Source: Kalmusia sp. IMI 367209 | Lineage: Eukaryota > Ascomycota > Dothideomycetes > Pleosporales > Didymosphaeriaceae | Assembly (NCBI GenBank): GCA_027946365.1 | Contig: JAPEUQ010000021.1 | Coordinates: 124,001-188,000 of the forward strand | Direction: 5' to 3' | DNA length: 64,000 nt | Shown: positions 3,037 through 45,232 of the stretch, piece after piece | How positions within the stretch are numbered: position 1 is the first letter of the stretch | Layout of the letters: each line of letters starts with the position of its first letter | Made by a program: the position numbers and the translations under genes | The notes under the pieces: model-generated | What the model saw: the letters and a program-made list of their open reading frames with translations, nothing else | What the model was told of the DNA's origin: nothing | Databases searched by the model: none

Positions 3037-3688
3037 AGCTGCGCTGGAGGGTTGCGAGGGAGAGAGGATGGGGCGCGTCAAGTTGTGCAGCGTCACGACA
3101 TTTTGTCTTGAATCATGACGTTGACCGCCTTAGGGCCGAAAACACCGATGCTGGCGCACAGACGCCGCGGAATCGCCATGGTTCGTCCGATCCCGACTTT
3201 TGGGAAATATCTCAGTGTAAAATAGATGCTAGGATAGACCTCTGCTATTGGAGGGTTTGGATTCCGACTTTATAATTATATGGGCTATGAGAACCATGTC
3301 TAATAGGCATCCCTTTTCGCTTAAAAGATTGTAGTCGCCAAGATTCCAGCAGGCACTACTATATTGCCTCTTTTGAGGAGGTAACCTCAGTCGAATGTTC
3401 CATCAACTTGATGTTCTATGTTCTAATCACAGGCCCCAGTTGCTCTCTTGTTAGAGCATTATGGTCTCTAGCATTTTTAGCATCCAGCATCGGGAGCATA
3501 GGTGAGACTACATACCTTCTGCATGGTATATGTAATGAGCACACGATGGAACGGGCTGTCCACTAGCTCCGCAATGCGCTTTCCTAGAGCTAGGCCTGGT
3601 CTCGGCTTCGTATCGTGTTCCGCGTCGTGTGAGATTTGGCGAACTTTTTGCTTGAAAAGGGTCGAAAAAGCCGACCGTCGGAACCGGC
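3037..3688. other. Intergenic, no gene seen
   Basis: Upstream region of the ABC1-like gene and downstream of YAE1. No domain-bearing frame, RNA gene or repeat recognised. Confidence 0.45.
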
Positions 3689-14253: not shown

Positions 14254-17200
14254 ATGATGGAGCTTGATGCGCCTATAAGCAAGAAGCGGCCAGCTTCACC
14301 AGCTTGGCCCACTTGCATCATGTACATCCTCGCCTGGCTCCTCTTCGCGGATCGCGCCTGGTCACGCCCACAGCTCCTTCCCATTCTACAACCTGCTCAA
14401 TCCACGACATGCTCCGATGCCACGGGCACTACATACGCCAACGGCACCACTATCATAGACCAGGGTCGCGTTTACCAGGTCATCTGCAATAATAACTTGC
14501 TCCAAGCAACTCTATCTACCAGTCTCACTCCCAGTCTGACAGTCTGTGTGGACGCGTGCGTTGGAAGCCCGTATTGTGTCGGCGCTACGTATGATAATCT
14601 CCTGAGGACCTGCACATTGAAGGGTGTCACGGGCGTCATCGCGAATACGGTGAATGGGCTAGGAAATACCCTGGGTGGACTCCTAGGGACGAGCAATGGC
14701 GTTATTGCATTGGTGCCGGTGGGAGTGGTGAGTAGTTTGTTGCCGAGTACGGCAATAAGGGCCGCTTCCACCTCGGTCTCTCCAGTCGCGCTACCAAGTG
14801 TAAGCGTCTCTCCTTCCAGAGCTCTCCCCGGAACATCCATCGGCGTGACAGTGTCGGTCGGAGCATCGTTATCAGCTGGAGCGGTGGTACCAATTCTCTC
14901 ATCGTTGGTCGTTCCTTTAATACCTAACTCTCCTTCGGCAATCGTGCCAAGCTCTTCTCTCAGGATTTCTACACCGACACCAGTAATATCCGTTCCTTCA
15001 GCTCCAGCGGCAAGTAGCGTGGCAAACGCTCTCGGTGGACTTCTATCTGCTCTTGCTATACCAAGTTCTTCGATTCGCATATCTACGCCTACACCACCGG
15101 TAGTCGTCCCAGTTTCTACTCCGGCGGCGCAGAATCTCCTCGGAGGCCTTCTCGGTGGACTTCTCGGTGGCGCTGCGTCTAGCATAGTAGGAGCTCCGAG
15201 CAGTTTGGTTGCAGTTCCTAGTTCGGTACCGTCACGGGGCGTTTCCTCAGTTTTGCCAGGACCGCTGATATCTACGCCTCTGGTAGCTGCGCCTCTGGTA
15301 ACTACACCTTTGGTTATATCGCCTCAGACTCCAGCGGTGAGCGGTGTGCAAAATGTCCTCGGTGGCCTACTCGGTGGCCTACTCGGAGGAGGTCCGAGCA
15401 GTGTGATCGTAGTCCCTAGTTCTGCCCCGCCGGTGGGAGTCTCGTCTGCGCTTCCAGCCGTGTCGGTATCTGCGCCCTCAGTTCCTGCTCCTGTAGTGAG
15501 TAGTGTGCAGAATCCTCTCGGTGGCCTTCTAGGTGGAATTCTTGGTGGTCCTGTGTCAAGTGTGGCCGCAGGTCCGAGCATCTTGGTCGCAGTTTCTGTC
15601 AATGTGCCAGCGCTGGGAGTCCCGTCGGTGCTTCCAATTGTGTCTGTTCCTGCACCTTCGCTTGTATCGTCCATTGTTCCTGCAGTGTCCTTTATCCCTG
15701 CAGCGAGTAGTGTGCAAAATCCAGTTGGAGGTCTACTTGGGGGACTACTTGGAGTGCTAGGAGGACCAGGGAGTGTGCCAGCTGTTTCCAGTTCTGCGGC
15801 ACCGCCAGTTATCGCGGCACCTTCGACAGTACTACCAGTCATTCCTGCAGCTAGCAGTGTGCAGAATCCAGTTGGCGGACTTCTCCCGATTCTAGGTGGG
15901 TTAGGCGGCGGAGTTCCTGTTTCAAGTCCCGTGGCACCGCTAGGTATCGCGACGTCTTCAGCAGCATCGCCTTCAGCAGCATCACCGGTTAGTCCTGCAG
16001 CTAGCAGCGCGCAGAATCCATTTGGTGGACTTCCGTCGAATCTAGGTGGCTTCTTAAGTGGACTTGCTGTGCCGACTTCGGTCGCGAGCTTGACGCCTGC
16101 TTCGTTGGCTTTGAGTGGTGTCTCGAACGTCGGGGTAGTGAGCAGTGTTCAGAATCCACTTGGTGGACTGCTTCAAGGTCTGGGAGGTATACTGCCCCAG
16201 CCGAGTCCCATCGCCGTCGTGACACCTTCCCAGGTGGTACCCATTGTCTCTTCAGTGGCGCCGGTGGGCGGAGTGCAGAATCCCCTGGGCGGCCTGCTTC
16301 CCGGTCTGAGCGTGTTGGAGAGTCTCGTAAATGTTCCCAACCCCACTCTCAATATTCCTTCCGTAGGGCTATCGTCACTACCGGGTCTTTCTATCCCAAC
16401 ACCTTCGGCAATTCTATCTCGCCCGTTATCGATACTAGGAGTGAGTGCTCTCCAGAGTCCACTTGGTGGTTCAGCCATAGGCATAGCAGGGTTAGGAAGC
16501 GTACCAGCCGTTGTTGCAAGCCCTGTTCTTGGCCTTCCTTCCCTCGGTATCTCGGCAGCTCTAGTGGTTCCATCTCCAGGAGTTCTAACGCCTTCACCTG
16601 CTGTGCCCGCTGCATCACCGACACTGGCAACGGGAGGCGTGCAAAATCCCCTTGGAGGTCTACTTGGTGGTTTAGGAGGCCTCCTAGGTCAACCGAGTCT
16701 TGCACTTGGCGTTTCTCTAGGGCTTCCGGCTGTTTCTGTTGGACTTCCAGCCGTGTCTTTAGGACTTCCAGCATTGTCAGTACCGGCATTATCAATCCAG
16801 GCAATATCAGCCCCAGCATTATCAGTTCCAACATTATCAGTTCCCGGTTTTTCGGTCCAAGGATTTTCATTAGCAACGCCATCACCTGTTGCACCTGTTG
16901 CATCGCCAACACTGGCAACGGGAGGCGTGCAAAATCCCCTTGGAGGTCTACTTGGTGGTTTAGGAGGTCTCCTAGGTCAACCGAATCTTGCACTTGGCGT
17001 TTCTCTAGGACTCCCGGCTGTTTCTGTTGGACTTCCAGCCGTGTCTTTAGGACTTCCAGCATTGTCAGTACCAGCATTATCAATCCAGGCAATATCAGCC
17101 CCAGCATTATCAGCCCCAGCATTATCAGTTCCAGCATTATCAGTTCCAGCATTATCGGCTCCAGGACTATCGGCCCCGGTATTGTCAGTCCCAGCAATAT

Positions 17201-20200
17201 CAGCCCCAGTTTTATCAGTTCCCGGTTTTTCAGTCCAAGGATTCTCGTTACCAACGCCATCACCTGCTGCACCTATTGCATCTCCAACAATAGCAACGGT
17301 AGGCATTCAAAATCCTTTAGGAGGTTTGCTTGGAGGGTTAGGAGGCCTCCTAGGTCAACCGAGTCTTGCAGTTGGCGTTTCCCTAGGGCTCCCAGCTGTT
17401 TCTCTAGGGCTCCCAGCTGTTTCTCTAGGGCTCCCAGCTGTTTCTCTAGGGCTCCCGGCTGTTTCTGTAGGACTTCCAGCCGTGTCTGTAGGACTTCCAG
17501 CTGTGTCTGTAGGTCTCCCAGCAGTGTCTGCAGGACTTGCTGCTTCTGTAGGACTTCCAGCCCTGTCTCTAGGTCTTCCGGTCCTGTCTGTACCTGCTGT
17601 CGCGAGTAACTTACAGCCCATCCTTCCTGTAGTAACACCTGCATTGAGCAATCCGTTGGCACAGCAAAGCGTCTTGGGAGGTATTCCCGTACCGCAACCG
17701 TCGGCTCTGCTACCTGCTGTATCGGCGCCAAATCCAATAAACAGTGGGATTTTTATATCCGCTCTCGACTCTGCCCTCGAAGGCATTCTAGGAATTCCGA
17801 TACCAACAGCTATTCCTTCCCTCGCTTCTCCCTCCCTGGTGGCAAATGTTCCTGCGGCTTCGGCTCCCAATGCTGGGAGTAATTCACTTCTTCCTGTATT
17901 GGGAGCAGTACTGGGTAGTCTTCTGGGGCTTCCTGGTATTCCCACAGCCTTACCTACAACCATCGCTCAACCAGGCGTAGCATCAGTACCCCTAATAACA
18001 TCATCAGCAAGTCTTCTTTCTCCTTCTCTAGAAAACCAACTTGACGCGATGTTATCCTATCTTTCATTCGATCTCGGCATCTACTTCCCGCGTGACCAGT
18101 TCTTTTCCATGTACGGCATTTCACCATCGACTGCCACTCCCATACCTGCGACCTTGGCTCCGCCTGTGACAACACCTGCAAACCAGGGACTTGTTCCTGG
18201 AGCGCTGTCTGTATTGGGCCTCGGTCCAATTGCGGCCGTGCCTTCAGGGCCTATTTTGTCAGCTCAGGTTTCGCTCTCGGCGGGCGTTGCTTTGCCATCT
18301 GTCAATAGTGTTGGTGGCGGCGTATTAGGTGGCGTCTTCTCTGCTATAGGACTTGGAGGTCCTCCCTCAGCAGTGCCGTCCTTACCTGTGGCTTCACTAG
18401 CCGTGGCTACTCCATCGCCTTTGGTTCCCTCGGTCAATATTGGTTCTCTAGTGCAATCTCCAGCTTCAGTATCAACTGCTCCAAGTGGCGCAAGCCCGGG
18501 TGCGGGTGGAGGTATACTAGGCGGCCTCTTCTCTGCTTTAGGACTTGGAGGTCTTCCTTCGGCACAACCATCCCTACCTGTTGCTTCACTACCCCCCGCG
18601 GTGCTTTCGGTGAATGCTGGATCTATATTGCAATCTTCGGCTCCAACTCCTGTGGCTCCAGGGGGGGCAACTCCTGGTGCGGGGAACCTCTTGGGAGGAT
18701 TGTTGTCGGATCTTTCCAATGTCCCGACACCGATAGTAAATCCCAACGGTGCCCCGCCTGCAACTGGCGTGAATTTACTAGAGATTAGTCTCGGTCTACC
18801 AAATGTAGCCCTTCCTACTGCGCCGTTGATTAATGTTCCTTCTCTAGGGATACCATCGATAGGTCTTCCGAGCGTGGGCCTACCGACTGTCGCTGTTCAG
18901 CTTCCTTCTCTAGGAGTTCTTTCAGTACAGGGATTAAGTGGAGGGCTCCCCGGTTTGGGCCTGCCGAGTGTAGGAATCCAGCTTCCATCTTTGGCCGTTC
19001 CATCCATAGGCCTCCCAAGCGTGGGTCTACCGAATGTGGGCTTGCCATCTATCGCAGTTCAACTTCCTTCAATGAGTCTTCCATCAATAGGTCTTCCAAG
19101 CATAGGCTTGCCAACCGTTGAGATTCAGCTTCCTTCTCTAGGAATTCAAGCAATTGAGACAGCAAGCATGGGCACCCCAAATATAGGCTTACCAGCTATC
19201 AGCCTACCGACTGTAGCTGTTCAACTTCCTTCCTTAGGGGGTCCTTCAGCAAGTTTACCTCTAGTCGGCCCTGGGCCCTCACAGCTACCCACAAGTCCTA
19301 ACAACCCTCCTAATCTCCTGGGTGGACTACTCTCAGGACTGGGTCTCGGCGGTCTTCCTACGGTAGGCCTCCTTATTCCTCAAGCACCATCTTCCATCCC
19401 GAATGTCGTCGGTGGGATCGTAGGAGGATTGCTCTCAGGACTAAATGTGCCCACTTCATTGCCTCTGGCTCTTGGGGCAGGTTCTCAAACCACGGCGCCT
19501 AGTAATGCGGCTAATATTATTGGTGGTGTATTGTCTGGCCTCGGCCTTCCTGGTGGTCTTCCTATCCCTACCAATGCGCCTGCAGTACCAAGTGCCTCTC
19601 TTCCAAATGTCATAGATCAAGTCGTAGGCGGATTGCTCTCAGGTCTACCCATCATTAGTTCTCCCCCTCCGCCATCTGTGCCAGGTCCCAGCAATGCTGC
19701 TAATGTACTTGGAGGTCTATTATCTGGCCTGGGTCTTCCTCAAGGTCCCACCATAACCAATGTTCCTGCAGCACCAAGCATTTCGATTCCAAACCTCGTC
19801 GACGAAGTTCTGGGTGGCCTATTGACCAATTTAAATCCAAGTCAACTTCTCCCGACATTAACAGGCGTTCCTAACCTGCTCCCGGGAACGTCTCTCCCGA
19901 ATGTCGGTAATGAAGTAATTGGAGGCCTGCTTTCTGCCATCAAGGCATCTGGCTCTCTGTCAGGACCTCTTCCTACCGAGGGTCTCGTGGGACCCTTCAA
20001 CGGCTTGCTCTCGGGTATAGGCTTGCCTGGTGGCATTTCTGTGCCTATCAGCGGCATTCTGGCTATTCCATCAGTACCAATAAGTGGTATTCCCTCACAA
20101 TTGAGCGGTGTGGTGCCTGGTATTCCTGGTGTTGTAGGCGATATTTTGTCTGGCGTGATACATCCTGCCCTGCCGTTGCTAACAGGCGTTCCAAACTTGC

Positions 20201-23200
20201 TACCTACGGTGTCAGTGCCGAGTGGTCTCCAGGGTGCTGTTGGTGGTCTGCTATCTGGTCTAGCAAACCCCTCTTTGTCACAACTTCCGAATCTGCTTCC
20301 TACAACGGCATTAACGAATCCTGTGGATGAAGCAGTTGAGGGTATTCTTTCTGGTTTAGCGATTCCAGGTGTCCCACCAGCTTCAAGGGCCTCCAATCCC
20401 GTGGAAGGTGTTTTGGGTGGTCTCCTGTCTGGAATAGTTGCTCCCATCATCCCAACTGCCACGATTGGGCCCAGCGTTCCAAACCTACTCCCTGTGGCCC
20501 CAACACCGAATCTTGGAGGTGTAGTTGGAGGCCTACTCTCCGGGTTGGGCGTACCATCTGGGTTGCCGTTGATCCCTGGCTCTTTGAACCTACAACCAAC
20601 AAACTCGATTCCGAACGGCGTTGGAGAGCAAGTCGGTGGCCTGCTCTCTGCTTTGGAAATTCCAAGCTCTTTGCCTATCATTTCTCAACCAGGCATTATT
20701 GGTGGCGTACTTTCAGGCTTAGCAGGAGTCAGACCCACTATAAGCCCAGAAATACCGCAATTGCTTTCAGAGTTGGCAGCAGGTCTTCCACTACCTACAT
20801 CTGGTCCACCTAACCTTGTTGGTGGCTTGTTGTCAGGATTAGGGCCTCTTGGATCTGGTATCCTCAATCCATCTGCGGTACCTCCTAATCTAGTCGACAA
20901 CTTGCTCTCTGGGTTAGGGAACCTGCCTTCTGAGATCCCATCTCTTACCAGAGGTGTGCCTCTCCCATTGATTACACCAGTTCCGAGTATTGTGGATGAG
21001 GTGATTGGTGGCGTGCTCTCTGGCCTGGGCGGATCTTTCAACAATGCACTACCAAGTGGCGTCCCTTCAAATATTATCGAAAATCTTTTAAGTGGTTTGG
21101 CACCCAACCCAGGCCCCATTTTATCAGCACCAATGGGGTCCGGAATCGCACAGCCAATTCCCACAGGCAATATCGCACCAGGAGGCCTTCTGGGTGGTTT
21201 GATATCTGGTATTGAACTCGGTGGTCTGCCAATACCCACTGCTATACCCACAGTATCGCTTCCAATTCCAACAAATGCAAACACTCTTGGGGGACTCCTG
21301 GGTAGTTTCGATCCTGGCATCTTGCTTGGTTCGCAGTTTTCTATCCCCGCGGTTCCTTCTGGGTCTCGCAGTCCTGAAGGCCTCGGGAACCTACTTTCTG
21401 GCTTAGGTCCTTTACTCCCCACGAATATTTTGAGTAATCTACCAGCTGCTCTTCCGTCCTCAGGTCTACCAGCCATTGTAGAAGGTATCCTCTCTGATCT
21501 CGAGATTGGAGGCGGTTTGCTAACAGCCATACCTACTGGCCCGCTACCCAGTACCATCAATCCTGGTATCAACCAAAACCCTATTGGCGGACTACTCTCC
21601 GGGTTAGGACTTCCCTTAAGCTTACCACTTCCCACGGGCATACCTGCACCTCTAGGGGGCTTAAACCCATCTCTAAATGTCGGGAGTTTGCTACCTGGAC
21701 TTCTTTCCAATATCGTGGAGGGCTTCCCTACGCCTACTGCACTTGGTCCGTTACCTAGCATTACGAATCTCGGAGGCCTCGTTAGTGGGATATTATCTGG
21801 CCTACAATTGCCTCCCGGTCTCCCGCTACCGACAAATATCGCGGTGCCCCCAGTGCTTTCCATCCTTCCTGTAGATATAAGTCTGCTACCTGGACTATTG
21901 TCTAATCTACCAGGTCTTCCTATCTCAGGAGCCCCTCCACTACCTAGTGCCACGAATGCAGGCCCCATCGATGAGCTTCTGAATGGATTACTTACAAACG
22001 CAGCATTGAGCCCCCTGCCGAATCCTACGATCACGGATCTCGATGATGCCATCGGAGGCTTGTTCTCGGCCCTGGAAATTCCCACCGCACTGGCCGCTCC
22101 TAGTGTATCTGGAGTTGAACTTGGTGGCGATCTTTTCAGTGGCCTGCTCTCCAATCTTCCAGCGCCTTCGAATCTACCGCCCATTGGTCCGCTGCCCAGC
22201 TTGAATAATCTTGGGCAGATTGAGAGCATTGTCAATGGTCTAGTATCAGGACTGCCACATGTCTCTGTCCCTATTTCAGTGCCTCAGCCGAGTGTCACGC
22301 CAGGCAATATAATTGGCGATCTCCTAAGCGGGCTAGCGCCAGGTCTCCAGCAGCCATTTTCGTTCGACCCAGCGCTCAATACTCGGATTGGTGGTCTGCT
22401 TTCCGGCCTTTTGCCAGGAGTCAGCTTGCCAACCGTACTACCAAGCGTCACTGCACCCAATAATGTGGGAGAGCTAGTGAACAACTTACTTTCTGACCTT
22501 GGAACCCCTGTTTTGTCGCTACCACTTCCCACAAATGTTGTGGGCGACATCGTTAGCGGCTTGCTCTCTGAATTGGCAGGTACGCCAACGCTTCCCGGAA
22601 TTCCTCTTCCGAGTGTTACCCCACCGATTCCTATCGGAGGCGTGATCGGGGGTCTTCTCTCTGTAGTCCCTGGAGTCTCCGGGCTTCCACCGGTGCCGTT
22701 ACCTGCGATATCATTACCCACCGATGTCCTCGGCGGCATTGTTGGGGGTGTGCTGTCAGACCTTGGAGGACCTATCTCTCCTGGTGTATTGCCAATATCA
22801 CTCCCTTTTACAACTTTCATTACCATACCAATACCCTCACCTATACTTCCGATCGAAGTTCCTGCACCAGCCACAACAGGTGGCTCAGGGGGCGGTTTAC
22901 TAGGAGGTCTATTAAGTGCTGTCGGGCTAGGTGGTGCGGTACCAACATTAACGCCAGGCATCCCACTGGCGCCGAGCGCTGGCAATGTTCTGGGCGGCCT
23001 TCTTTCTGCACTTCCAGGCAGTGTGAATCCTGCTATACCAATATCCATTTCTCCGGGATTGGCGACTGCAGCCCCAGCAAATATCATCGGCGGCTTACTG
23101 TCTGGCTTAGGATTACCAGCAACTACCAATATTCCAGGCGTATTGAATGGTCTGCTCTCTGACCTCGGTAGAATACCAACGACTTTGGTCAGGGTTCCAT

Positions 23201-26200
23201 CTCCATCAGTTCCAGCAGCTCCAGGGGATCTCATTGGTAATCTACTTTCCGGCATTGGCGTCAGTGAACTTCCCACGCTACCCGGATCCTTGAATCCTTT
23301 GGCCACGAATGCTATCAATGCCCTAGGAGGTCTCTTCTCTGGTCTGGGCACAGGGATCCTACCTGAGCCTACAATATCTGGAGTAGGCTTCAATCCTTTA
23401 AGCAATGCACCGGAACTAGTCGGTGGATTGCTCTCAGGCGTGGGCAATCTTCTTCCCTCTATCAGCGGTCCTCTTATTCCGGGGCCGACACGCAGTATAA
23501 ATCTCGTTGGTGATTTACTTTCGGACCTTGGAGGCGTCGTATTGCCTACCCTTCCGTTAGGGGTCGGGTCAATCTTGGGTACAACTCCCACCATTCCCGC
23601 ACCTCTCGCACTTCCCAGTCTACCTTTGCTTAACCCCAACTCTTTGCTATCTGAATTAGGCGGAATCTTACCGATATCGCTGCCTTTGCCAGAGATTAAC
23701 TCTTTATTATCTGCAGTAGGCGGATCTTTACCAACACAATCAGGACTGCCTCTAGCCGGCCTGAACTCGTTGCTTTCTGGCCTAGCTGGATCTTTGCCGA
23801 GCGCCTCGGTGCTACCTCCAGTGGGTCTGAATCCACTGTTGTCTGCATTAGCCGAACCTCTTCCAACGTCTCTGGCACTACCTTTAAGCGATCTAGGCCC
23901 GTTACTATCATTATTGCCTGGAGGTCAGCTTACATCCATTCTTACTGCGGGCTTGGGTCCCCTGCCTGCCGCATCACCAGGCCCACTCATTGATCTGAGC
24001 CCTCTGCTATCTTTGGTACCTGGTGGGATACCAACTACAGCACCAGTCTTAGGAGTTCTTCCAACTCAGGCTTTGGTAGATTTGGACCCCTTGCTTTCAC
24101 TTCTCCAGGTGGGCCCGATTTCGTCCATACTCAATTCTTTAGCCCCGCCATCAGCTTCCGTGGGCCTACCCATTGATCTGAATCCGATACTTTCAGAACT
24201 ACAAGTTATTGTGCCCTCCATCACATTGGGACCACAGCTTCCGGTGATTCCCTCGGGAGTACCGCCTATCAATCTAGACCCCTTGCTCTCCTTTGTGGAA
24301 AGCGCGCTTCCTGCTATTCCCTCTGGGCTACTGCCGAGTCCGGGAGCTTCAGGGAACCCACTGACTGATATCAACGACGTATTCTCCATTCTTGGTGGTG
24401 AATTGCCCTCGCTCGTTTCTAACATCGAACTATTGCCGACGTCACCAATTGAGTCTCTATTAGATCCTCTTCTTTCACTTGTCGGGGGAGTAGAACCCTC
24501 GGGAGGCATCATAGGTCCTCTGCCCACTTTACCGGTTGAGTCGCTGATCAATGTCAACCCACTGCTATCTGCGCTCAGTGCACTTCCGACGGCCGTACCA
24601 CTGCCAAATTTACCAACTCAGCCGCTAGTCGATATCAATCCGTTACTATCTGAGCTCGGGAGCCTTCCTACACTTGTATCCCTACCTAATTTGCCATCAG
24701 GACTCCCAATTAATCTTAATTCGCTAATATCTGGGCTCGGTGGCCTTCCCACTGCTGGACCACTACCAAGTCTGCCAACAGAACCTTTAGTGAATATCAA
24801 CCCGCTACTGTCTGAACTTGGAAATCTCCCTACGGCTGTGTCACTGCCCCTATTACCAACCGAACCATTGGGCGGCCTTAATCCATTACTATCTGGGCTT
24901 GGTGGTCTCGCCACTGGCCTCGCTGGTCTTCCTACTCCGCTTGTGTCGCTACCAACTGGACCGTTGATTGGTCTTAATCCGCTACTGTCCGGGCTAAATG
25001 ATCTAAACACGGGGCTTGGTGGCGTTCCTCTGCCTCTTTCGCTTCCGGCGTTACCAACGGGACCACTGGTTGATCTTAATCCGTTGCTTTCTGAGCTTGG
25101 CAACCTTCCGACGCTGCCTACCGCACTACCGACCTTACCGACACAACCGCTGGTTAACCTAAACCCTCTGTTGTCTGCGCTTCCTAGCCTTCCTATTCCG
25201 CAAGTTTCATTGCCAGCTTTACCAACAGGACCACTGGTTGACCTGAATCCGCTGCTTTCTGAGCTTGGGAACCTTCCTATTCCGACAGTCTCGTTGCCAG
25301 CCTTACCAACAGGGTCACTAATTAACCTTAACCCATTGCTCTCTGAAATTGGTAACCTTCCTACGCTGCCAATTTCACTGCTAGCCTTACCAACAGGGCT
25401 ACTGGTTGATTTGAATCCGCTATTGTCTGCGCTTCCTAGCCTCCCTGTTCCGCCCCTATCACTACCAACAGGACCACTGGTTGACCTGAACCCGCTGCTT
25501 TCTGAGCTTGGGAACCTTCCTATTCCGACAGTCTCGTTGCCAGCCTTACCAACAGGGTCACTAATTAACCTTAACCCATTGCTCTCTGAAATTAGTAACC
25601 TTCCTACGCTGCCGATTTCACTGCCAGCATTACCAACAGCGCCACTAGTTAACCTTAATCCACTGTTATCTGAGCTCAGTCGCGTTCCCACGCCTATATT
25701 ACAAGGCTCACCAACAGTCCCGATAGTCGACCTCAATCCGCTATTGTCTGAACTTGGTGGGGTTCCTACACTTCCTTTGCCAGGCTTACCAAGTACACCA
25801 ACAGCCAACTTTAATCCGCTGTTGTCTGCACTTGGTGGCCTTCCCACACTTTTGTTACCTGGTTTACCAACGGCACCTTTAGTCGATCTTAATCCTCTGC
25901 TATCTGAGCTCGCGAGTCTACCTAGGCCGACATTATCAGGCTTGCCAACAGGTCCTATAGTCGGTCTTAATCCGCTGCTTTCAGAACTTGGTAGTCTTCC
26001 CACTCCCGCTTCACTACTGAATCTACCAACAGGACCAGTCATAAATCTCAATGCACTGACATCTATCCTCAATGGTGGAGTCCCTTCATCTATCTCGTTA
26101 CCAACAGGATCACTGGTCAATCTCAATCCACTGTTGTCACTGGTCGGTGAACTACAGCCTTCATTGGGACCGACCGGGCTACCAACTTCAAACCCATCAA

Positions 26201-29200
26201 GCAATCCGCTCATTGATCTCAACCCGATCTTCTCTATCTTTGGTGGCGAACTACCTACATCTGTACCTCTACCTGTTTTGCCAACAGAACCGCTTATTGA
26301 TCTCAATTCGCTTCTATCTCTGCCAACAGCTGTATCCCTTCCTGGGCTACCAACGTTACCAACAGGACCACTCGTTGACCTGAGTGCACTACCATTCTTA
26401 CCTACGCCTGTGTCAATACCTACTCTACCAACGGTGCCAATAGTCGACCTCAATCCCCTCTTAACGCTAATTGGTGGGCCCCAATCCTCACTTGGAGGCA
26501 TATTAGGCTCCATACCAACCGCCTCACCTGGGTCCCTCGTCGACCTAAACCCTCTTTTTTCCGTCTTAGGAACAAATCCTCTCCCTACTTCACTGCCGGT
26601 CGACCTCGGTCCTTTATTATCGCTCCTTGCAGCGATACCTACGAACACTCCTATATTTGATATCAATCTCTCGTTGGGAGGTTTAGAAGGTCTTTTTCCC
26701 ACCTACCATAGTAGTACAATATTGATTGACCAGGCTACTACTCTTTCGAATACCGCTCCGCTTTTTACGGAATCTTTCCGTTCACCCAGCTCAGGACAAT
26801 CTGCATCGTACACCTCAACTCCAACCCCGCAAATTACTTCTGGGGTTACCCCATCAACGCTCAGTACTTCAATCAGGCCTGGAAGCGATGTTTCGTCGTC
26901 TGAGGGATTTGGTATCCTTGAAATAATGTTTGGACTTGATACAACCACGCCATTGGAAACTGCAGCAACAACGAGCCGTACACAAAGGTCATTCACCCCC
27001 AGAGAAAGTAATGGTGGCATAAGAACGTCGAGATCATTCGGAAGTAGCACTGCCAACCAACTTTATTCAACGAGTGAAGGAGCTCTCACATCTATTTCTT
27101 CATCTTTGCTACAAAGCTCTTCGCTAGTGACGAGTTCATCCATGATAGGGTCGCTCGGCATAAATCAAGTACCGTTGTCTTCGACCCGCTCAAGTGTTTT
27201 GACTAGTGTTACTCAAACGCTTCAGCCTACATCGGTGACCCAAGGTGGCGCCCTAGAAGTTTCGGCCGCCGTCTCATTGATCATATTTGAGAACCCGCCG
27301 CCACCCACTGTCTCACCAATAGGTATCCAGAATGTACAGCAGTCTACCCTCTCATCAACAACTATCGAGAGCTCACTGCAATCCGTCATCTCCTCGACAA
27401 CTAGTGAGAGCCCACAATCCACTGCCTCTGAAGCAGAGATCCTGATCATTGGAGCATTCGATTTCCCAATAACTACTGGGAGCTCTACTCAATCTGCTAC
27501 CCCGCCGACGGCTAGTGAGAGCCCACAGTCAGCTGCGTCCGAAGCGGAAGAGCAAGTCTTCATAGCATTCGACATTCCAACAGCTACCGAAAACTCGCAA
27601 TCCACTGTATCCGAACAGGATTTTTTCATAGCCCTCGACGTTCCAACAGCTACTGAAAGCTTTACAGAATCTGCTGTCTCACCAACGGCTAGTGAGAGCT
27701 CACAGTCAACCGCGTCTGAAGCGGAAGAGCAGGTTTTCATAGCATTCGACATTCCAACAGCTACCGAGAGCTTACCAGAATCTACTATTCCCCCAACATC
27801 CAGTGAGAGCCTACAGACCACTACCTCTGAAACAGAAGTTCAGATCTTTGGAGCATTCGACATCTCAACAACCATTGAGAGCTCACCACAATCTACTACC
27901 TCACCAACAGCTATTGAGAGCTTACCGCAATCTATCATCTCTCTAACAACGCTCGAAAGTTCGCAATCTGTTATAAGCTTGCAAACCACCACCGCAAGCT
28001 TACAATCCACAATCGGAAGCTCACAATTCACTATTAGCTCTCAGTCCACCATCGCGAGCCTACAATCCACTCCCAGCTCACAATCTACTACTGCGAGCTC
28101 GCAATCCATTATTTCACAAACAGGTGTTCAAGGCATTCAAGCACTTGCCCTCTCAGCAACCACTCCGAGCTCACTACAATCTACTATCTCGACATTAGCC
28201 ATTGAGAACTTATCGCAATCTACCATATCTTCATCAACTATTCAGAGCTCACAATTCACTACAAGCTCGCAGTCCACTCTAAGCTCGCAATCCACTATCA
28301 GCTCACAGCCCACCGTCGCGAGCGTACAATCCACTGTGTTACAAACAGGTATTCAAAGCATTCAAGCACTTGACCTCTCAACAACTGTTGCCAGCCCAAC
28401 AGAATCTCTCATATCTTCGACAACTGTCGAAATCTCACCATCTACTCTCGAAAACTCACAATTCACTATCACTACATCACAGGTCACTACTTCGCAGGTC
28501 AATACCTTGCAGGTCACTACCTCCGAAGCAGAAGTCCAGGTCTTTCAAGCATTTGACTTTCCAGTAGCTATTGAGAGCTCATCGCAACCTATTGCATCTT
28601 CAACGGCTGTCGAAAGCTCACAGTCCACAACTGGGAGCTTATCGCAGTCTGTTATATCTTCAACTACCGAAAGCTCACAATCGACCATTGAGAACTTATC
28701 GGAACCTGCTACATCAACTATCGAGGCCACACAATCCCCTACCTCCGAAGAAGAAGTCCAAATCTTTCAAGCATTCGACTTTCCAGTAGCTGTTGACAGC
28801 TCAACACAACTTGTTACGTCTTCGACTATCGCAAGCTCACAATCTACTACTGAGAGCTCACGACCCGCTGTCCAGCTCGTTCAAGCATTCGCCATCCCAC
28901 CTGCTATTGAGAGCTCACAGTCCATCGCCAGTCTAACATCGTCCTCACAACCTCCTGCTTCTCCAAGCCCTGGACCTGGACCAGCATCGTCCTTGCAGTC
29001 TACAAGTTCCCAGTATCTCAATCCTAGTGCAACATCATCTGCATCTATAAGGTTTCAGGCTGCTTTGATTAATCAAAGTCCCTCGGGAACTGGATCTCGG
29101 ACAACCAGTCCAGGAGCATCTAGCATAATAAATCTGGCGAGCTCAATCAGAACAGGTACTTCAAATTTTGGCCCATCCAATTCTAACTTGGGTGTCTTTA

Positions 29201-30216
29201 ACGTTGCAAACGAACCCTTGACAACTTCCTCATCCCGAAGAGATAGATACACAAGTAGCAGGCCAAATCCACCTCCTACGGCAACTGTCGTTATAACTCT
29301 TGTTCGGACCGCATCCCAAAGCTATAATCTGATTCAGACTTCCACGACAATTCAATCAGAAACCTCCGGACTGCTGTTGGCCAACGCCATCTCCTCTACC
29401 CTAATCAGCAATGGGAAAATCATTTCAACAGGAACAAGCATGATAGGAATCTCAACCACTATCTCGGGGACGAATAGCGGAAACGTTCAAGCATTCGGCT
29501 TCCCAGCAACAGTTACTGAGATTTCGTTACAATCTAGTATTACGTCAGCAATATTCCAGAGTTCACCATCATCCACTATCTCAGAAACAGATATCGAGCC
29601 TTTCGGGCCATTCGGCTTCCCAGCGTCAGATATTGAGAGCTCAACTACCCAGTCGTTGCCTGGTCTTGGTGCCCAAGCCGGGACTTCCGCTCGAGTGTCG
29701 GTACCTACGAAGTCAGCTTTACATACACCTGTTGCTCCTCGACCATGGTGGAAGTGGAGTGATCCAAGTGATCCAGGTGATGGTGTAGATGATGAGGGCC
29801 TCGGTACTGGCCAAACCTATCACTATGGAAATCAAGGCCAACATTTGAACCAAATTCAACATGGCAATAATGCCAAGAGCCCTAATCAAGTCCACAATGA
29901 TAACAAAGGCAAAAGGCCGAATAAAATTCACAATGGTAACGAAGGCAAAGGGGGAAATCGATTCAAACATGGTAATGGCGGACAAGGACACAGGGACAAT
30001 AGCTATGAAAGAGATGAAAATGAAGTGACAGATTATGTCGATAAAGATGACGTTGAAGAGGGAGATGTTAGCTGTGCCAAATGCGATTGGTCAGACGGAG
30101 AAGACAACGAAGGTGAAGGGGTTGATTGGGAATGGGTTGAAGATGATGCTATGGATCCTCAAGATGAAGCAAACCAGAAAGGAGAAGACAAAGAAGGCGA
30201 CAAGTCTCAAGACTAA
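14254..30216 (+). CDS. Giant secreted repeat protein, 5,320 residues, single exon
   Basis: One open frame of 15,963 bp without intron. Order of parts: cytosolic-type basic start, hydrophobic signal segment (residues about 19-37, ends ADRAWS); PAN/apple-like module with Cys 53, 78, 98, 102, 108 and 120; Gly/Leu/Ser/Val repeats built on QNPLGGLLGGLGG (about 130-1270); a short aromatic, charged island (about 1260-1290); LPSVGLPTVAVQLPSL repeats (about 1513-1665); GGLLSGLG repeats (about 1683-3112); PLVDLNPLLSELG repeats (about 3113-4149); Ser/Thr-rich region with a recurring AFDFP motif (about 4170-5149); WWKWSDP; His/Asn/Gly repeats (5190-5250); acidic tail. Lysine, Trp and Cys are nearly absent from the core. 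No C-terminal membrane anchor. Secretion is well supported; a wall, matrix or surface-coating role is inference. No known family recognised beyond the N-terminal module. Confidence 0.9.
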   Translation: MMELDAPISKKRPASPAWPTCIMYILAWLLFADRAWSRPQLLPILQPAQSTTCSDATGTTYANGTTIIDQGRVYQVICNNNLLQATLSTSLTPSLTVCVDACVGSPYCVGATYDNLLRTCTLKGVTGVIANTVNGLGNTLGGLLGTSNGVIALVPVGVVSSLLPSTAIRAASTSVSPVALPSVSVSPSRALPGTSIGVTVSVGASLSAGAVVPILSSLVVPLIPNSPSAIVPSSSLRISTPTPVISVPSAPAASSVANALGGLLSALAIPSSSIRISTPTPPVVVPVSTPAAQNLLGGLLGGLLGGAASSIVGAPSSLVAVPSSVPSRGVSSVLPGPLISTPLVAAPLVTTPLVISPQTPAVSGVQNVLGGLLGGLLGGGPSSVIVVPSSAPPVGVSSALPAVSVSAPSVPAPVVSSVQNPLGGLLGGILGGPVSSVAAGPSILVAVSVNVPALGVPSVLPIVSVPAPSLVSSIVPAVSFIPAASSVQNPVGGLLGGLLGVLGGPGSVPAVSSSAAPPVIAAPSTVLPVIPAASSVQNPVGGLLPILGGLGGGVPVSSPVAPLGIATSSAASPSAASPVSPAASSAQNPFGGLPSNLGGFLSGLAVPTSVASLTPASLALSGVSNVGVVSSVQNPLGGLLQGLGGILPQPSPIAVVTPSQVVPIVSSVAPVGGVQNPLGGLLPGLSVLESLVNVPNPTLNIPSVGLSSLPGLSIPTPSAILSRPLSILGVSALQSPLGGSAIGIAGLGSVPAVVASPVLGLPSLGISAALVVPSPGVLTPSPAVPAASPTLATGGVQNPLGGLLGGLGGLLGQPSLALGVSLGLPAVSVGLPAVSLGLPALSVPALSIQAISAPALSVPTLSVPGFSVQGFSLATPSPVAPVASPTLATGGVQNPLGGLLGGLGGLLGQPNLALGVSLGLPAVSVGLPAVSLGLPALSVPALSIQAISAPALSAPALSVPALSVPALSAPGLSAPVLSVPAISAPVLSVPGFSVQGFSLPTPSPAAPIASPTIATVGIQNPLGGLLGGLGGLLGQPSLAVGVSLGLPAVSLGLPAVSLGLPAVSLGLPAVSVGLPAVSVGLPAVSVGLPAVSAGLAASVGLPALSLGLPVLSVPAVASNLQPILPVVTPALSNPLAQQSVLGGIPVPQPSALLPAVSAPNPINSGIFISALDSALEGILGIPIPTAIPSLASPSLVANVPAASAPNAGSNSLLPVLGAVLGSLLGLPGIPTALPTTIAQPGVASVPLITSSASLLSPSLENQLDAMLSYLSFDLGIYFPRDQFFSMYGISPSTATPIPATLAPPVTTPANQGLVPGALSVLGLGPIAAVPSGPILSAQVSLSAGVALPSVNSVGGGVLGGVFSAIGLGGPPSAVPSLPVASLAVATPSPLVPSVNIGSLVQSPASVSTAPSGASPGAGGGILGGLFSALGLGGLPSAQPSLPVASLPPAVLSVNAGSILQSSAPTPVAPGGATPGAGNLLGGLLSDLSNVPTPIVNPNGAPPATGVNLLEISLGLPNVALPTAPLINVPSLGIPSIGLPSVGLPTVAVQLPSLGVLSVQGLSGGLPGLGLPSVGIQLPSLAVPSIGLPSVGLPNVGLPSIAVQLPSMSLPSIGLPSIGLPTVEIQLPSLGIQAIETASMGTPNIGLPAISLPTVAVQLPSLGGPSASLPLVGPGPSQLPTSPNNPPNLLGGLLSGLGLGGLPTVGLLIPQAPSSIPNVVGGIVGGLLSGLNVPTSLPLALGAGSQTTAPSNAANIIGGVLSGLGLPGGLPIPTNAPAVPSASLPNVIDQVVGGLLSGLPIISSPPPPSVPGPSNAANVLGGLLSGLGLPQGPTITNVPAAPSISIPNLVDEVLGGLLTNLNPSQLLPTLTGVPNLLPGTSLPNVGNEVIGGLLSAIKASGSLSGPLPTEGLVGPFNGLLSGIGLPGGISVPISGILAIPSVPISGIPSQLSGVVPGIPGVVGDILSGVIHPALPLLTGVPNLLPTVSVPSGLQGAVGGLLSGLANPSLSQLPNLLPTTALTNPVDEAVEGILSGLAIPGVPPASRASNPVEGVLGGLLSGIVAPIIPTATIGPSVPNLLPVAPTPNLGGVVGGLLSGLGVPSGLPLIPGSLNLQPTNSIPNGVGEQVGGLLSALEIPSSLPIISQPGIIGGVLSGLAGVRPTISPEIPQLLSELAAGLPLPTSGPPNLVGGLLSGLGPLGSGILNPSAVPPNLVDNLLSGLGNLPSEIPSLTRGVPLPLITPVPSIVDEVIGGVLSGLGGSFNNALPSGVPSNIIENLLSGLAPNPGPILSAPMGSGIAQPIPTGNIAPGGLLGGLISGIELGGLPIPTAIPTVSLPIPTNANTLGGLLGSFDPGILLGSQFSIPAVPSGSRSPEGLGNLLSGLGPLLPTNILSNLPAALPSSGLPAIVEGILSDLEIGGGLLTAIPTGPLPSTINPGINQNPIGGLLSGLGLPLSLPLPTGIPAPLGGLNPSLNVGSLLPGLLSNIVEGFPTPTALGPLPSITNLGGLVSGILSGLQLPPGLPLPTNIAVPPVLSILPVDISLLPGLLSNLPGLPISGAPPLPSATNAGPIDELLNGLLTNAALSPLPNPTITDLDDAIGGLFSALEIPTALAAPSVSGVELGGDLFSGLLSNLPAPSNLPPIGPLPSLNNLGQIESIVNGLVSGLPHVSVPISVPQPSVTPGNIIGDLLSGLAPGLQQPFSFDPALNTRIGGLLSGLLPGVSLPTVLPSVTAPNNVGELVNNLLSDLGTPVLSLPLPTNVVGDIVSGLLSELAGTPTLPGIPLPSVTPPIPIGGVIGGLLSVVPGVSGLPPVPLPAISLPTDVLGGIVGGVLSDLGGPISPGVLPISLPFTTFITIPIPSPILPIEVPAPATTGGSGGGLLGGLLSAVGLGGAVPTLTPGIPLAPSAGNVLGGLLSALPGSVNPAIPISISPGLATAAPANIIGGLLSGLGLPATTNIPGVLNGLLSDLGRIPTTLVRVPSPSVPAAPGDLIGNLLSGIGVSELPTLPGSLNPLATNAINALGGLFSGLGTGILPEPTISGVGFNPLSNAPELVGGLLSGVGNLLPSISGPLIPGPTRSINLVGDLLSDLGGVVLPTLPLGVGSILGTTPTIPAPLALPSLPLLNPNSLLSELGGILPISLPLPEINSLLSAVGGSLPTQSGLPLAGLNSLLSGLAGSLPSASVLPPVGLNPLLSALAEPLPTSLALPLSDLGPLLSLLPGGQLTSILTAGLGPLPAASPGPLIDLSPLLSLVPGGIPTTAPVLGVLPTQALVDLDPLLSLLQVGPISSILNSLAPPSASVGLPIDLNPILSELQVIVPSITLGPQLPVIPSGVPPINLDPLLSFVESALPAIPSGLLPSPGASGNPLTDINDVFSILGGELPSLVSNIELLPTSPIESLLDPLLSLVGGVEPSGGIIGPLPTLPVESLINVNPLLSALSALPTAVPLPNLPTQPLVDINPLLSELGSLPTLVSLPNLPSGLPINLNSLISGLGGLPTAGPLPSLPTEPLVNINPLLSELGNLPTAVSLPLLPTEPLGGLNPLLSGLGGLATGLAGLPTPLVSLPTGPLIGLNPLLSGLNDLNTGLGGVPLPLSLPALPTGPLVDLNPLLSELGNLPTLPTALPTLPTQPLVNLNPLLSALPSLPIPQVSLPALPTGPLVDLNPLLSELGNLPIPTVSLPALPTGSLINLNPLLSEIGNLPTLPISLLALPTGLLVDLNPLLSALPSLPVPPLSLPTGPLVDLNPLLSELGNLPIPTVSLPALPTGSLINLNPLLSEISNLPTLPISLPALPTAPLVNLNPLLSELSRVPTPILQGSPTVPIVDLNPLLSELGGVPTLPLPGLPSTPTANFNPLLSALGGLPTLLLPGLPTAPLVDLNPLLSELASLPRPTLSGLPTGPIVGLNPLLSELGSLPTPASLLNLPTGPVINLNALTSILNGGVPSSISLPTGSLVNLNPLLSLVGELQPSLGPTGLPTSNPSSNPLIDLNPIFSIFGGELPTSVPLPVLPTEPLIDLNSLLSLPTAVSLPGLPTLPTGPLVDLSALPFLPTPVSIPTLPTVPIVDLNPLLTLIGGPQSSLGGILGSIPTASPGSLVDLNPLFSVLGTNPLPTSLPVDLGPLLSLLAAIPTNTPIFDINLSLGGLEGLFPTYHSSTILIDQATTLSNTAPLFTESFRSPSSGQSASYTSTPTPQITSGVTPSTLSTSIRPGSDVSSSEGFGILEIMFGLDTTTPLETAATTSRTQRSFTPRESNGGIRTSRSFGSSTANQLYSTSEGALTSISSSLLQSSSLVTSSSMIGSLGINQVPLSSTRSSVLTSVTQTLQPTSVTQGGALEVSAAVSLIIFENPPPPTVSPIGIQNVQQSTLSSTTIESSLQSVISSTTSESPQSTASEAEILIIGAFDFPITTGSSTQSATPPTASESPQSAASEAEEQVFIAFDIPTATENSQSTVSEQDFFIALDVPTATESFTESAVSPTASESSQSTASEAEEQVFIAFDIPTATESLPESTIPPTSSESLQTTTSETEVQIFGAFDISTTIESSPQSTTSPTAIESLPQSIISLTTLESSQSVISLQTTTASLQSTIGSSQFTISSQSTIASLQSTPSSQSTTASSQSIISQTGVQGIQALALSATTPSSLQSTISTLAIENLSQSTISSSTIQSSQFTTSSQSTLSSQSTISSQPTVASVQSTVLQTGIQSIQALDLSTTVASPTESLISSTTVEISPSTLENSQFTITTSQVTTSQVNTLQVTTSEAEVQVFQAFDFPVAIESSSQPIASSTAVESSQSTTGSLSQSVISSTTESSQSTIENLSEPATSTIEATQSPTSEEEVQIFQAFDFPVAVDSSTQLVTSSTIASSQSTTESSRPAVQLVQAFAIPPAIESSQSIASLTSSSQPPASPSPGPGPASSLQSTSSQYLNPSATSSASIRFQAALINQSPSGTGSRTTSPGASSIINLASSIRTGTSNFGPSNSNLGVFNVANEPLTTSSSRRDRYTSSRPNPPPTATVVITLVRTASQSYNLIQTSTTIQSETSGLLLANAISSTLISNGKIISTGTSMIGISTTISGTNSGNVQAFGFPATVTEISLQSSITSAIFQSSPSSTISETDIEPFGPFGFPASDIESSTTQSLPGLGAQAGTSARVSVPTKSALHTPVAPRPWWKWSDPSDPGDGVDDEGLGTGQTYHYGNQGQHLNQIQHGNNAKSPNQVHNDNKGKRPNKIHNGNEGKGGNRFKHGNGGQGHRDNSYERDENEVTDYVDKDDVEEGDVSCAKCDWSDGEDNEGEGVDWEWVEDDAMDPQDEANQKGEDKEGDKSQD
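14640..18060 (+). repeat. Giant protein repeat block A: QNPLGGLLGGLGG dialect
   Basis: In-frame repeats, each with a core such as SVQNPLGGLLGGILGG, separated by Ser/Val/Pro/Ala spacers (VSVPS, LGLPAVS). Cores start near 15346, 15502, 15709, 15856, 16006, 16141, 16267, 16639, 16921 and 17305. Between 17370 and 17590 a seven-residue unit (LGLPAVS) repeats almost perfectly about ten times. Confidence 0.85.
16621..17196 (+). repeat. 288-bp near-identical tandem duplication
   Basis: The stretch beginning acactggcaacgggaggcgt at 16621 recurs at 16909, an offset of 288 bp (96 codons), with only scattered silent or conservative differences. A third, more diverged and longer copy starts near 17287 (offset 378 bp). 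The offsets are whole codon multiples, so frame is kept. This points to recent unequal recombination or slippage inside the gene. Confidence 0.85.
18790..19260 (+). repeat. Giant protein repeat block B: LPSVGLPTVAVQLPSL dialect
   Basis: About nine units of IGLPSVGLPTVAVQLPSLG-like sequence, a different repeat from block A. Alternating Gly/Leu-Pro and Val-Gln-Leu segments suggest extended or beta-type structure (inference). Confidence 0.75.
19300..23590 (+). repeat. Giant protein repeat block C: GGLLSGLG dialect
   Basis: Dozens of units of about 25-40 residues, each centred on NxxGGLLSGLGxP, with spacers such as PIPTNAPAVPSASLPNV. The core is a glycine-zipper-like hydrophobic segment. The preceding residues often read NVVDEVIGGLLSGL, giving an amphipathic helix-like pattern. 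Confidence 0.8.
23590..26700 (+). repeat. Giant protein repeat block D: LPTGPLVDLNPLLSELG dialect
   Basis: About 35 units of 20-35 residues with consensus LPTGPLVDLNPLLSELGNLP. Unlike blocks A-C each unit carries an Asp and often a Glu. A 243-bp (81-codon) near-identical duplication is visible, beginning ggaccactggttgacctgaa at 25228 and again at 25471. Confidence 0.85.
26760..29700 (+). repeat. Giant protein block E: Ser/Thr-rich with recurring AFDFP motif
   Basis: Mucin-like Ser/Thr/Gln sequence (SSQSTISSQ-type) likely to be heavily O-glycosylated. A motif of the form EVQIFQAFDFPVAIESS recurs about a dozen times, near nt 27440, 27548, 27614, 27725, 27836, 28126, 28350, 28532, 28754, 28873, 29482 and 29590. 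Confidence 0.8.
29821..30000 (+). repeat. Giant protein block F: 12-residue His/Asn/Gly repeat
   Basis: About five units near 12 residues: HYGNQGQHLNQIQ, HGNNAKSPNQV, HNDNKGKRPNKI, HNGNEGKGGNRF, KHGNGGQGHRD. This is the first strongly basic, hydrophilic part of the protein. It is followed by a tail dominated by Asp/Glu, with a CxxC pair (SCAKCDW). Confidence 0.8.
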
Positions 30217-44707: not shown

Positions 44708-45232
44708 ATGCGCGTCACCAGCTTCGTCGCCCCTCTCACCTTTGCGCTCGCCGCCAGTGCCCTCGACATTTCCATCGATGCTCCTGATCTAGGCGGCGTG
44801 AAGTCGGCCATCGAAAGCCAGGTCGGCCAAATCGAGAGCGCAGTCGGAGCCATCCCTTCATCAGTCATTGCTCAAGTCTCTTCTGTTCTCGGCTCCGTTC
44901 CCACGTCACTGCAAGGAGAGTTTTCTTCGCTCATCGGTAACGGCAACCTTGCTGGTGTATCCTCCCTCATCAACAGTGCGATCCCCTCGTCGGAGCGTGG
45001 AGTCCTGTCGTCCTTTGTCAACCAGCTTCCCACAGAACTGGGATTGGGTAACGGGGCATCAGCTACCTCGGGGGCCGGAAGCGCGACCGGAAGTGGCGGA
45101 CAGGCGGCAAATACGGGAAGTGGTGACAGTGGTGCTATGGGTGCGTCGACTACGTTTGGTAACACTGCGGCGTTGATGGCAGGTATATGGGGTGTTGCAG
45201 CACTAGGAGGAGCAGGACTCCTACTGTTATAA
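44708..45232 (+). CDS. Small GPI-anchored-type surface protein
   Basis: Single exon, 174 residues. Signal peptide MRVTSFVAPLTFALAASA. The middle (residues about 22-115) is Ser/Val/Leu/Ile-rich with amphipathic helix-like stretches such as VKSAIESQVGQIESAVGAIP and AQVSSVLGSVPTSLQGEFSS. A Gly/Ser/Ala linker (about 118-150) and a hydrophobic end AALGGAGLLLL follow, with small residues before it, as expected for GPI-anchor attachment. No cysteines are visible. It probably sits in the cell wall or plasma membrane. Its Leu/Ser/Gly style recalls the giant protein of this window, but I see no alignable homology. Function unknown. Confidence 0.75.
   Translation: MRVTSFVAPLTFALAASALDISIDAPDLGGVKSAIESQVGQIESAVGAIPSSVIAQVSSVLGSVPTSLQGEFSSLIGNGNLAGVSSLINSAIPSSERGVLSSFVNQLPTELGLGNGASATSGAGSATGSGGQAANTGSGDSGAMGASTTFGNTAALMAGIWGVAALGGAGLLLL

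Follow-up and report, generated by a model that had tools for sequence, protein, structure and literature searches.

A 5,320-codon open frame in Kalmusia sp. IMI 367209 predicted to encode a giant secreted repeat protein with a PAN head

Background

A 64,000-nucleotide stretch of the genome of Kalmusia sp. IMI 367209 (contig JAPEUQ010000021.1; this whole stretch is the window, and its numbering is used throughout) contains a forward-strand open frame of 15,963 bp (14254..30216, +). Does such a frame represent a single gene, and if so, what might a protein of 5,320 amino acids (aa) do for the fungus? An initial annotation had read the frame as a single-exon gene for a secreted repeat protein, an extracellular or wall structural protein that might be a hydrophobic coat, an adhesive, or an elastomer-like fiber. 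The analysis described here supports the extracellular structural type and considers in turn the frame, the parts of the predicted protein, its relative, its codon use, and its possible function.

The open frame

The frame comprises 5,320 codons plus a stop. There is no stop codon inside it, and the window as a whole contains zero N. Within the 16 kb of the frame an intron pattern has 0 matches compared with 1.0 +/- 1.07 expected (500 synonymous shuffles, P 0.41), which agrees with a single exon, short of proof. Splice-site motif depletion is weak and in the expected direction (GTAHGT, 0 vs 2.7, P 0.07). The initial description of a single open frame thus holds, and the frame is probably a single-exon gene. 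The calculated mature chain would be about 517 kDa with a pI of 4.05; the full protein contains 18 Lys, 18 Tyr, and 9 Cys residues.

The N-terminal head

The protein begins with a signal-like start (aa 1-37; 14254..14364, +), whose hydrophobic core, read from the sequence, extends from about aa 21 to 36. A Met at aa 23 is a possible alternative start, and a weak structure model places a helix at 18-36. The relative from Pseudopithomyces chartarum discussed below also has a hydrophobic start, which is followed by RPQ. The hydrophobic core, together with the signal-like start of the relative, bears out the signal segment proposed earlier.

Next is a PAN/Apple domain (aa 53-123; 14410..14622, +), a match to PF00024 (PAN_1) with six cysteines, at positions 53, 78, 98, 102, 108, and 120. 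The PF00024 score is 23.3 bits when aa 1-300 are scanned and 25.9 bits in a genome search, above the Pfam cut-off of 21.4, and 18.7 bits, under this cut-off, when the domain is scanned inside 4,000 aa; the P. chartarum relative scores 20.8, just under it. The cysteines are spaced 25-20-4-6-12 in this protein and 24-20-4-6-12 in that of P. chartarum. The structure model of the PAN domain is weak, and structure comparison gave no preference for PAN chains. The cysteine module that had been noted is a known domain, PAN_1.

The repeat zones

Hydrophobic repeats span aa 131-4160, about 4,000 residues. Blocks of 250 aa between aa 250 and 4000 have GRAVY values of 0.54-1.08, and most of the chain is nearly uncharged. 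Periodicity z-scores were calculated from hydrophobicity, independently of any motif, with 200 shuffles per zone; helix moments centered on the motif are biased by the motif, and the motif-free periodicity is the unbiased version.

Zone A (aa 131-690; 14644..16323, +) contains NPLGGLLGGLLGG-type (GGLLGG) units joined by Pro/Ser linkers and has a helical periodicity (z = 3.6 at 100 degrees). Zone B (aa 691-1110; 16324..17583, +) is made of tandem repeats of 5- and 7-residue units (PALSV, SLGLPAV), and its periodicity is beta-like or extended (z = 6.0 at 140 and 5.4 at 160 degrees); inside it, a tandem-repeat search finds a duplicated 288-bp unit present in 1.9 copies (16587..17132, +). Further along lies a conserved island (aa 1260-1289; 18031..18120, +), a charged, aromatic stretch within the repeats that has no Pfam match at E<=1. 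Zone B' (aa 1501-1670; 18754..19263, +), which contains LPSVGLPSIAVQLPSL (LPSVGLPS) units and matches P. chartarum aa 979-1117, is again beta-like (z = 7.9 at 140 and 4.8 at 160 degrees).

The main repeat of the protein is a short amphipathic helix that recurs about every 30 residues, in 82 motif units. Zone C (aa 1671-3100; 19264..23553, +) has 48 motif units with a median spacing of 30 aa, in which the core N-[LIV][LIV]GGLLSGL reads as an amphipathic helix followed by a Pro-rich linker. Its helical periodicity at 100 degrees (z = 12.4) is equaled by that of P. chartarum aa 1111-3200 (also 12.4). Zone D (aa 3101-4160; 23554..26733, +) has 34 motif units with a median spacing of 28 aa; the unit is LVDLNPLLSELGxLPTxxxLPxLPT, with DLNPLLSEL as its core. 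Periodicity in zone D is mixed (peak z 7.5 at 120 degrees, 4.3 at 100), a pattern of the kind that short helices alternating with Pro-rich linkers might give. An AlphaFold2 model of eight zone D units, which is of low confidence (pLDDT 41.5, pTM 0.26), gives each unit one helix of 7-9 residues and no confident arrangement of the helices. In all, 92 sites fit the pattern [LIV][LFIV]Sx[LIVF], compared with 23.7 +/- 4.4 in 200 shuffles, and the flanking -3 position is hydrophobic at 93% of these 92 sites and at 92% of 65 sites in P. chartarum. Thus, the repeats of about 4,000 residues are present as first described, but they are not of one uniform kind, being divided into distinct helical and beta-like zones.

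The mucin-like zone and charged tail

The repeats are followed by a Ser/Thr/Gln-rich, mucin-like zone (aa 4161-5140; 26734..29673, +) with 39% Ser+Thr. The hydrophobicity test (200 shuffles) detects no periodicity in this zone. It does contain short hydrophobic motifs, for example EVQVFQAFDFPV, and a strict form of the motif has 8 matches compared with a mean of 0.04 in 1000 shuffles. Under a loose pattern, eleven short motifs (EVQVFQAFDFPV or EEQVFIAFDIP, for instance) are distributed along 26734-29673, where they could serve as hydrophobic stickers.

The chain ends in a charged tail (aa 5141-5320; 29674..30213, +) that is His/Asn/Gly- and Asp/Glu-rich, contains one CxxC, and is 32% K/R/D/E. 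There is no hydrophobic end of the GPI type, the last 30 residues being strongly charged. Nor is there a transmembrane-like segment after aa 4160, that is, in the C-terminal 1,160 residues; the best 19-residue hydropathy mean is 1.39.

A collinear relative and the age of the repeats

A relative is found in Pseudopithomyces chartarum (Didymosphaeriaceae, Pleosporales): the 3,232-aa hypothetical protein GRF29_1g3562961 (hereafter P0001). Protein searches over length ranges of about 300 to 9,300 aa gave no further relatives beyond it. The five best matching pieces score 89, 74, 49, 42, and 35 bits; when P0001 was locally shuffled 20 times, no piece exceeded 25.8 bits. The PAN piece aligns aa 37-129 with P0001 26-119; the island-region piece, the best at 89 bits, aligns aa 1104-1352 with 702-899 and includes the island itself, which is identical at 21/30 positions; and the zone B' pieces align aa 1577-1660 with 979-1079 and aa 1512-1628 with 991-1117. 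Weaker pieces in zone C align aa 1835-1860 with 1183-1208, 2389-2505 with 1695-1805, and 2998-3083 with 3015-3095. Among the first eight pieces listed, the eighth (29.3 bits) breaks the order. P0001 has a signal-like start, a nearly identical spacing of the PAN cysteines, the island, the main order of zones, a similar composition, and the helix motif, whose copies lie a median of 33 aa apart. However, its gene model is shorter, ends within the repeats without a mucin zone or charged tail, and has 0 of the NPLLS units of zone D, compared with 19 in the 5,320-aa protein. In addition, P0001 has a CxxC + CxxxxC cluster within its repeats (aa 2526-2556), whereas the CxxC of the Kalmusia protein is in the tail only. 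Being uncharacterized, P0001 offers no function.

Comparison of the repeat copies with each other indicates how they have diverged. The cores of zone D differ mostly at silent sites (pS 0.68, pN 0.21), as do those of zone C (pS 0.75, pN 0.30); these values come from 18/34 units of zone D and 37/48 of zone C, and the selection of units by a protein motif lowers pN. In a shifted-frame control, which was done for zone D only, pN/pS is 0.31 in the true frame vs 0.87 and 3.05 in the two wrong frames. The 288-bp duplication, which was selected without a motif and is the only pair covered by the silent-site test in zones A and B, has a pS of 0.128 and a pN of 0.030 over 195 bp. Since silent-site divergence between units is so strong, most of the tested zone C/D array appears to be old rather than an assembly echo. 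Less divergence is seen in zone D among pairs of units >75% identical (pS 0.35). In zone C, adjacent units are no more similar than distant ones, and thus the common sequence there would not merely reflect recent duplication. In zone D, adjacent units are more similar than distant ones, from which it follows that this zone has probably grown more recently.

Codon-usage correlation with the neighboring genes failed as coding evidence (0.44 for the true frame; 0.65 and 0.47 for the shifted frames), and so the coding assignment rests on the silent-site bias and on the P. chartarum relative. Judged from these two lines, the frame is one gene. The relative also argues against two of the outcomes that the initial annotation had named as refuting it, several separate genes and an assembly artefact, and it upholds the claim of one gene.

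Copy number and neighborhood

The 42.8-Mb assembly (30 contigs) was searched for other copies, with matches counted among the best candidates scored. No second copy appears: the head query (aa 31-149) gave 1 candidate and 1 match, the zone C query (about aa 1667-2199) 3 matches, and the zone D query (aa 3401-3800) 4 matches, while a query with the last 1,161 aa gave 22 candidates and 1 match, every match lying inside the frame itself. PAN_1 has six matches among 11 candidates in this genome, one of which is the giant gene; the surroundings of the other five contain no giant repeats, and their open frames are at most 465 aa. Two loci (L002 and L007) have several PAN-like cysteine modules in a row, and L007 also has a transmembrane-like segment.

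Around the gene, Pfam recognizes 7/8 scanned frames, namely two short-chain dehydrogenases, a GH3 glucosidase, a threonine dehydratase, a separase, a phosphoesterase, and a tRNA methyltransferase. These neighbors suggest no cluster. Elsewhere in the window, 44708-45229 specifies a small Ser/Gly-rich protein (174 aa) that looks secreted and whose hydrophobic end may be a GPI anchor; Pfam gives it no match at E<=0.001.

Codon use and protease sites

The frame has a GC3 of 0.396. Ten neighboring frames have 0.572, four exons from GAPDH, actin-like, and elongation-factor genes have 0.72-0.78, and a further locus in the comparison, L018, has 0.698. The codons CTA, ATA, and ACA make up 19%, 28%, and 33% in the frame vs 0, 0, and 2% in three of these four exons pooled, and A/T-ending codons are present all along 14254-30216. 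RIP is rejected as their source, given that the four-fold T/(T+C) ratio is lowest before A (0.52 vs 0.59-0.67 before the other bases); a sliding RIP index does show a mild rise, reaching 0.18, over some of the sequence. Such poor codon use argues against constant bulk production of the protein, and no other observation speaks more strongly against an abundant material. One guess is that the gene is used briefly, for example in spores; another is that silent-site diversity shields the repeats from recombination.

Dibasic pairs occur only at aa 10-12, 4995, and 5220. With no dibasic site in the repeats, a Kex2-processed peptide precursor is rejected, and the chain would stay whole. Lys and Arg together number 18 in aa 131-4175 (14644-26778), 13 of them between aa 329 and 4175. 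In silico, trypsin yields 15 peptides of 7-30 aa from the whole protein, one of them within aa 329-4175; after cleavage at Asp+Glu, 2,103 residues fall in peptides of 7-40 aa. Because Lys and Arg are so scarce, wall proteomics based on trypsin would miss the repeats and with them most of the protein, a blind spot.

A proposed function and its alternatives

The reading that we favor, at slightly less than even odds, is a hydrophobic coat: the PAN head would hold the chain on the wall or sheath, and the helices would associate at an interface. The single gene would specify a secreted protein of about 517 kDa, destined for the cell wall or outer sheath, where the head would anchor the chain to wall polysaccharide or protein. 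About 80 short amphipathic helices of about 8-12 residues, each with a Leu/Ile/Val face opposite a Gly/Ser/Asn face and separated from the next by a Pro-rich linker, would then pack together or spread out where water meets air or a solid, creating a hydrophobic surface, while an O-mannosylated Ser/Thr zone and the acidic tail would keep the far end hydrated. A surface polymer of this kind is suggested by the PAN_1 match with its six cysteines, the lack of a transmembrane-like or GPI-like end, the motif-independent helical periodicity (z 12.4 in both species), the silent-site bias, and the collinear relative. Secretion, wall location, a ligand for the head, glycosylation, self-association, and surface activity are all properties that we infer for the protein.

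Both the coat and the adhesive roles of the initial annotation are candidate functions. As an adhesive or mucilage glycoprotein, the protein would bind a surface through its PAN head, and the repeats and Ser/Thr zone would wrap spores or hyphae in a sticky, hydrated sheath. PAN modules are known in adhesion proteins, as stated in an account of one fungal PAN protein (PMC3338822), the chain is acidic, and the zone with 39% Ser+Thr carries short hydrophobic motifs as possible stickers. However, most of the chain is nearly uncharged and, at a GRAVY of 0.54-1.08, more hydrophobic than a mucin, and the scarcity of Tyr, Lys, and Cys leaves no obvious adhesive chemistry; this role is rather unlikely.

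A load-bearing or elastic fiber, silk-, elastin-, or resilin-like, would make use of the great length of the chain, its beta-like zones B and B', and its regular Pro-rich units. Elastin, spidroin, resilin, and PIR proteins have their own signature repeat motifs. With 0 VPGxG, 0 polyA runs (>=5), 0 YGAP, and 0 PIR motifs, and with 7 bare VPG and 3 GPGxx, the Kalmusia protein lacks the signatures of these families, and the idea of an elastomer gains no support from such motifs. Collagen-type runs are also absent, crosslinkable residues are few (K 18, Y 18, C 9 of 5,320), and codon use is poor for a bulk material, making a fiber improbable.

A low probability likewise attaches to a surface protein that, like Rsp3 of Ustilago, shields the fungus from its host plant or signals to it. 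Such cases are described among the secreted fungal repeat proteins (PMC5923269), and the nearest relative belongs to the Pleosporales, an order described as including plant pathogens and endophytes (PMC11595767), but the island is 70% identical between genera and so is not fast evolving. Little weight is given to a weakly expressed, near-neutral gene whose length drifts by gain of repeats and which has no important role. This would account for the poor codon use, the likeness of neighboring zone D units (a sign of tandem duplication), and the finding of one relative; it is opposed by an intact frame of 5,320 codons with a silent-site bias between its repeat copies and by the conservation of the island and the order of zones in another genus. 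Finally, mis-assembly can strike long repeats and the P. chartarum model is shorter, at 3,232 aa, but an assembly artefact, or several genes joined within one frame, is very unlikely as the source of the sequence, since the other genus keeps the PAN domain, island, and repeat zones in identical order and silent-site divergence among the zone C and D cores tested is so large (pS 0.68-0.75) that echoes are unlikely there.

If the protein does form a hydrophobic coat, filamentous fungi could waterproof or seal a surface with a single giant chain instead of many small hydrophobins, a design that would differ from those of hydrophobins and repellents. PAN heads and secreted fungal repeat proteins are already known; in this protein, the analysis newly recognizes the amphipathic helix repeated about every 30 residues and the two beta-like inner zones. 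The combination of a PAN head with repeats on this scale was not found in the literature covered, which consisted of titles and the openings of abstracts and included few subscription papers. It is conceivable, though doubtful, that no earlier example has been seen of a class of fungal surface polymers to which this protein would belong and in which about 80 short, nearly uncharged helices are carried in one unprocessed chain of about half a megadalton, PAN-tethered at one end and hydrated at the other. Such polymers could have escaped notice, since trypsin cleaves them so rarely and gene finders may truncate or split their genes; the conserved island and the PAN head provide handles for finding further members.

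Comparison with known systems

The Kalmusia protein can be compared with several known types of protein. Hydrophobins, of about 100 aa, have eight Cys that include CC pairs; the 5,320-aa protein, with no CC pair and 9 Cys in all, is not one of them. GPI adhesins of the Flo/Als type have a hydrophobic C-terminal GPI signal, and are ruled out by the strongly charged last 30 residues. Signaling mucins of the Hkr1/Msb2 type have a transmembrane segment after the mucin zone, and are ruled out by the low hydropathy past aa 4160 (best mean 1.39). Proteins of the apolipoprotein type consist of a string of Pro-punctuated amphipathic helices that bind an interface; the helices here are shorter and almost uncharged, they come from another kingdom, and no homology is claimed.

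Sensors of the Wsc1 type have a Ser/Thr-rich stalk. Wsc1 is described as a membrane sensor of the fungal wall with a PAN/Apple fold (PMC9024836), whereas the C-terminal 1,160 residues of the Kalmusia protein contain no transmembrane-like segment. Ss-Sl2 of Sclerotinia sclerotiorum is a PAN-containing protein reported to accumulate on hyphal walls; when it is silenced, the sclerotia consolidate poorly and hyphal integrity suffers (PMC3338822). Like Ss-Sl2, the protein described here would be a secreted ascomycete wall protein with a PAN domain, its wall location being predicted; as described, Ss-Sl2 differs in its length of 352 aa and its two PAN modules, and that description includes no giant repeat region (PMC3338822).

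The repeats themselves recall Rep1 of Ustilago maydis, whose amphipathic repeats of 34-55 aa are reported to form surface-active fibrils on the hyphal surface (PMC4617103). Both proteins have, or are predicted to have, a secreted chain with amphipathic repeats of comparable length, and the surface activity reported for Rep1 is the one proposed here. Rep1, however, is a basidiomycete protein of 652 aa that is cut by Kex2 between its repeats (PMC4617103), and the absence of Kex2 sites between the repeats places the Kalmusia protein outside the Rep1 family. By analogy with Rep1, then, the best reading is that the 5,320-aa protein would act like a giant, uncleaved repellent.
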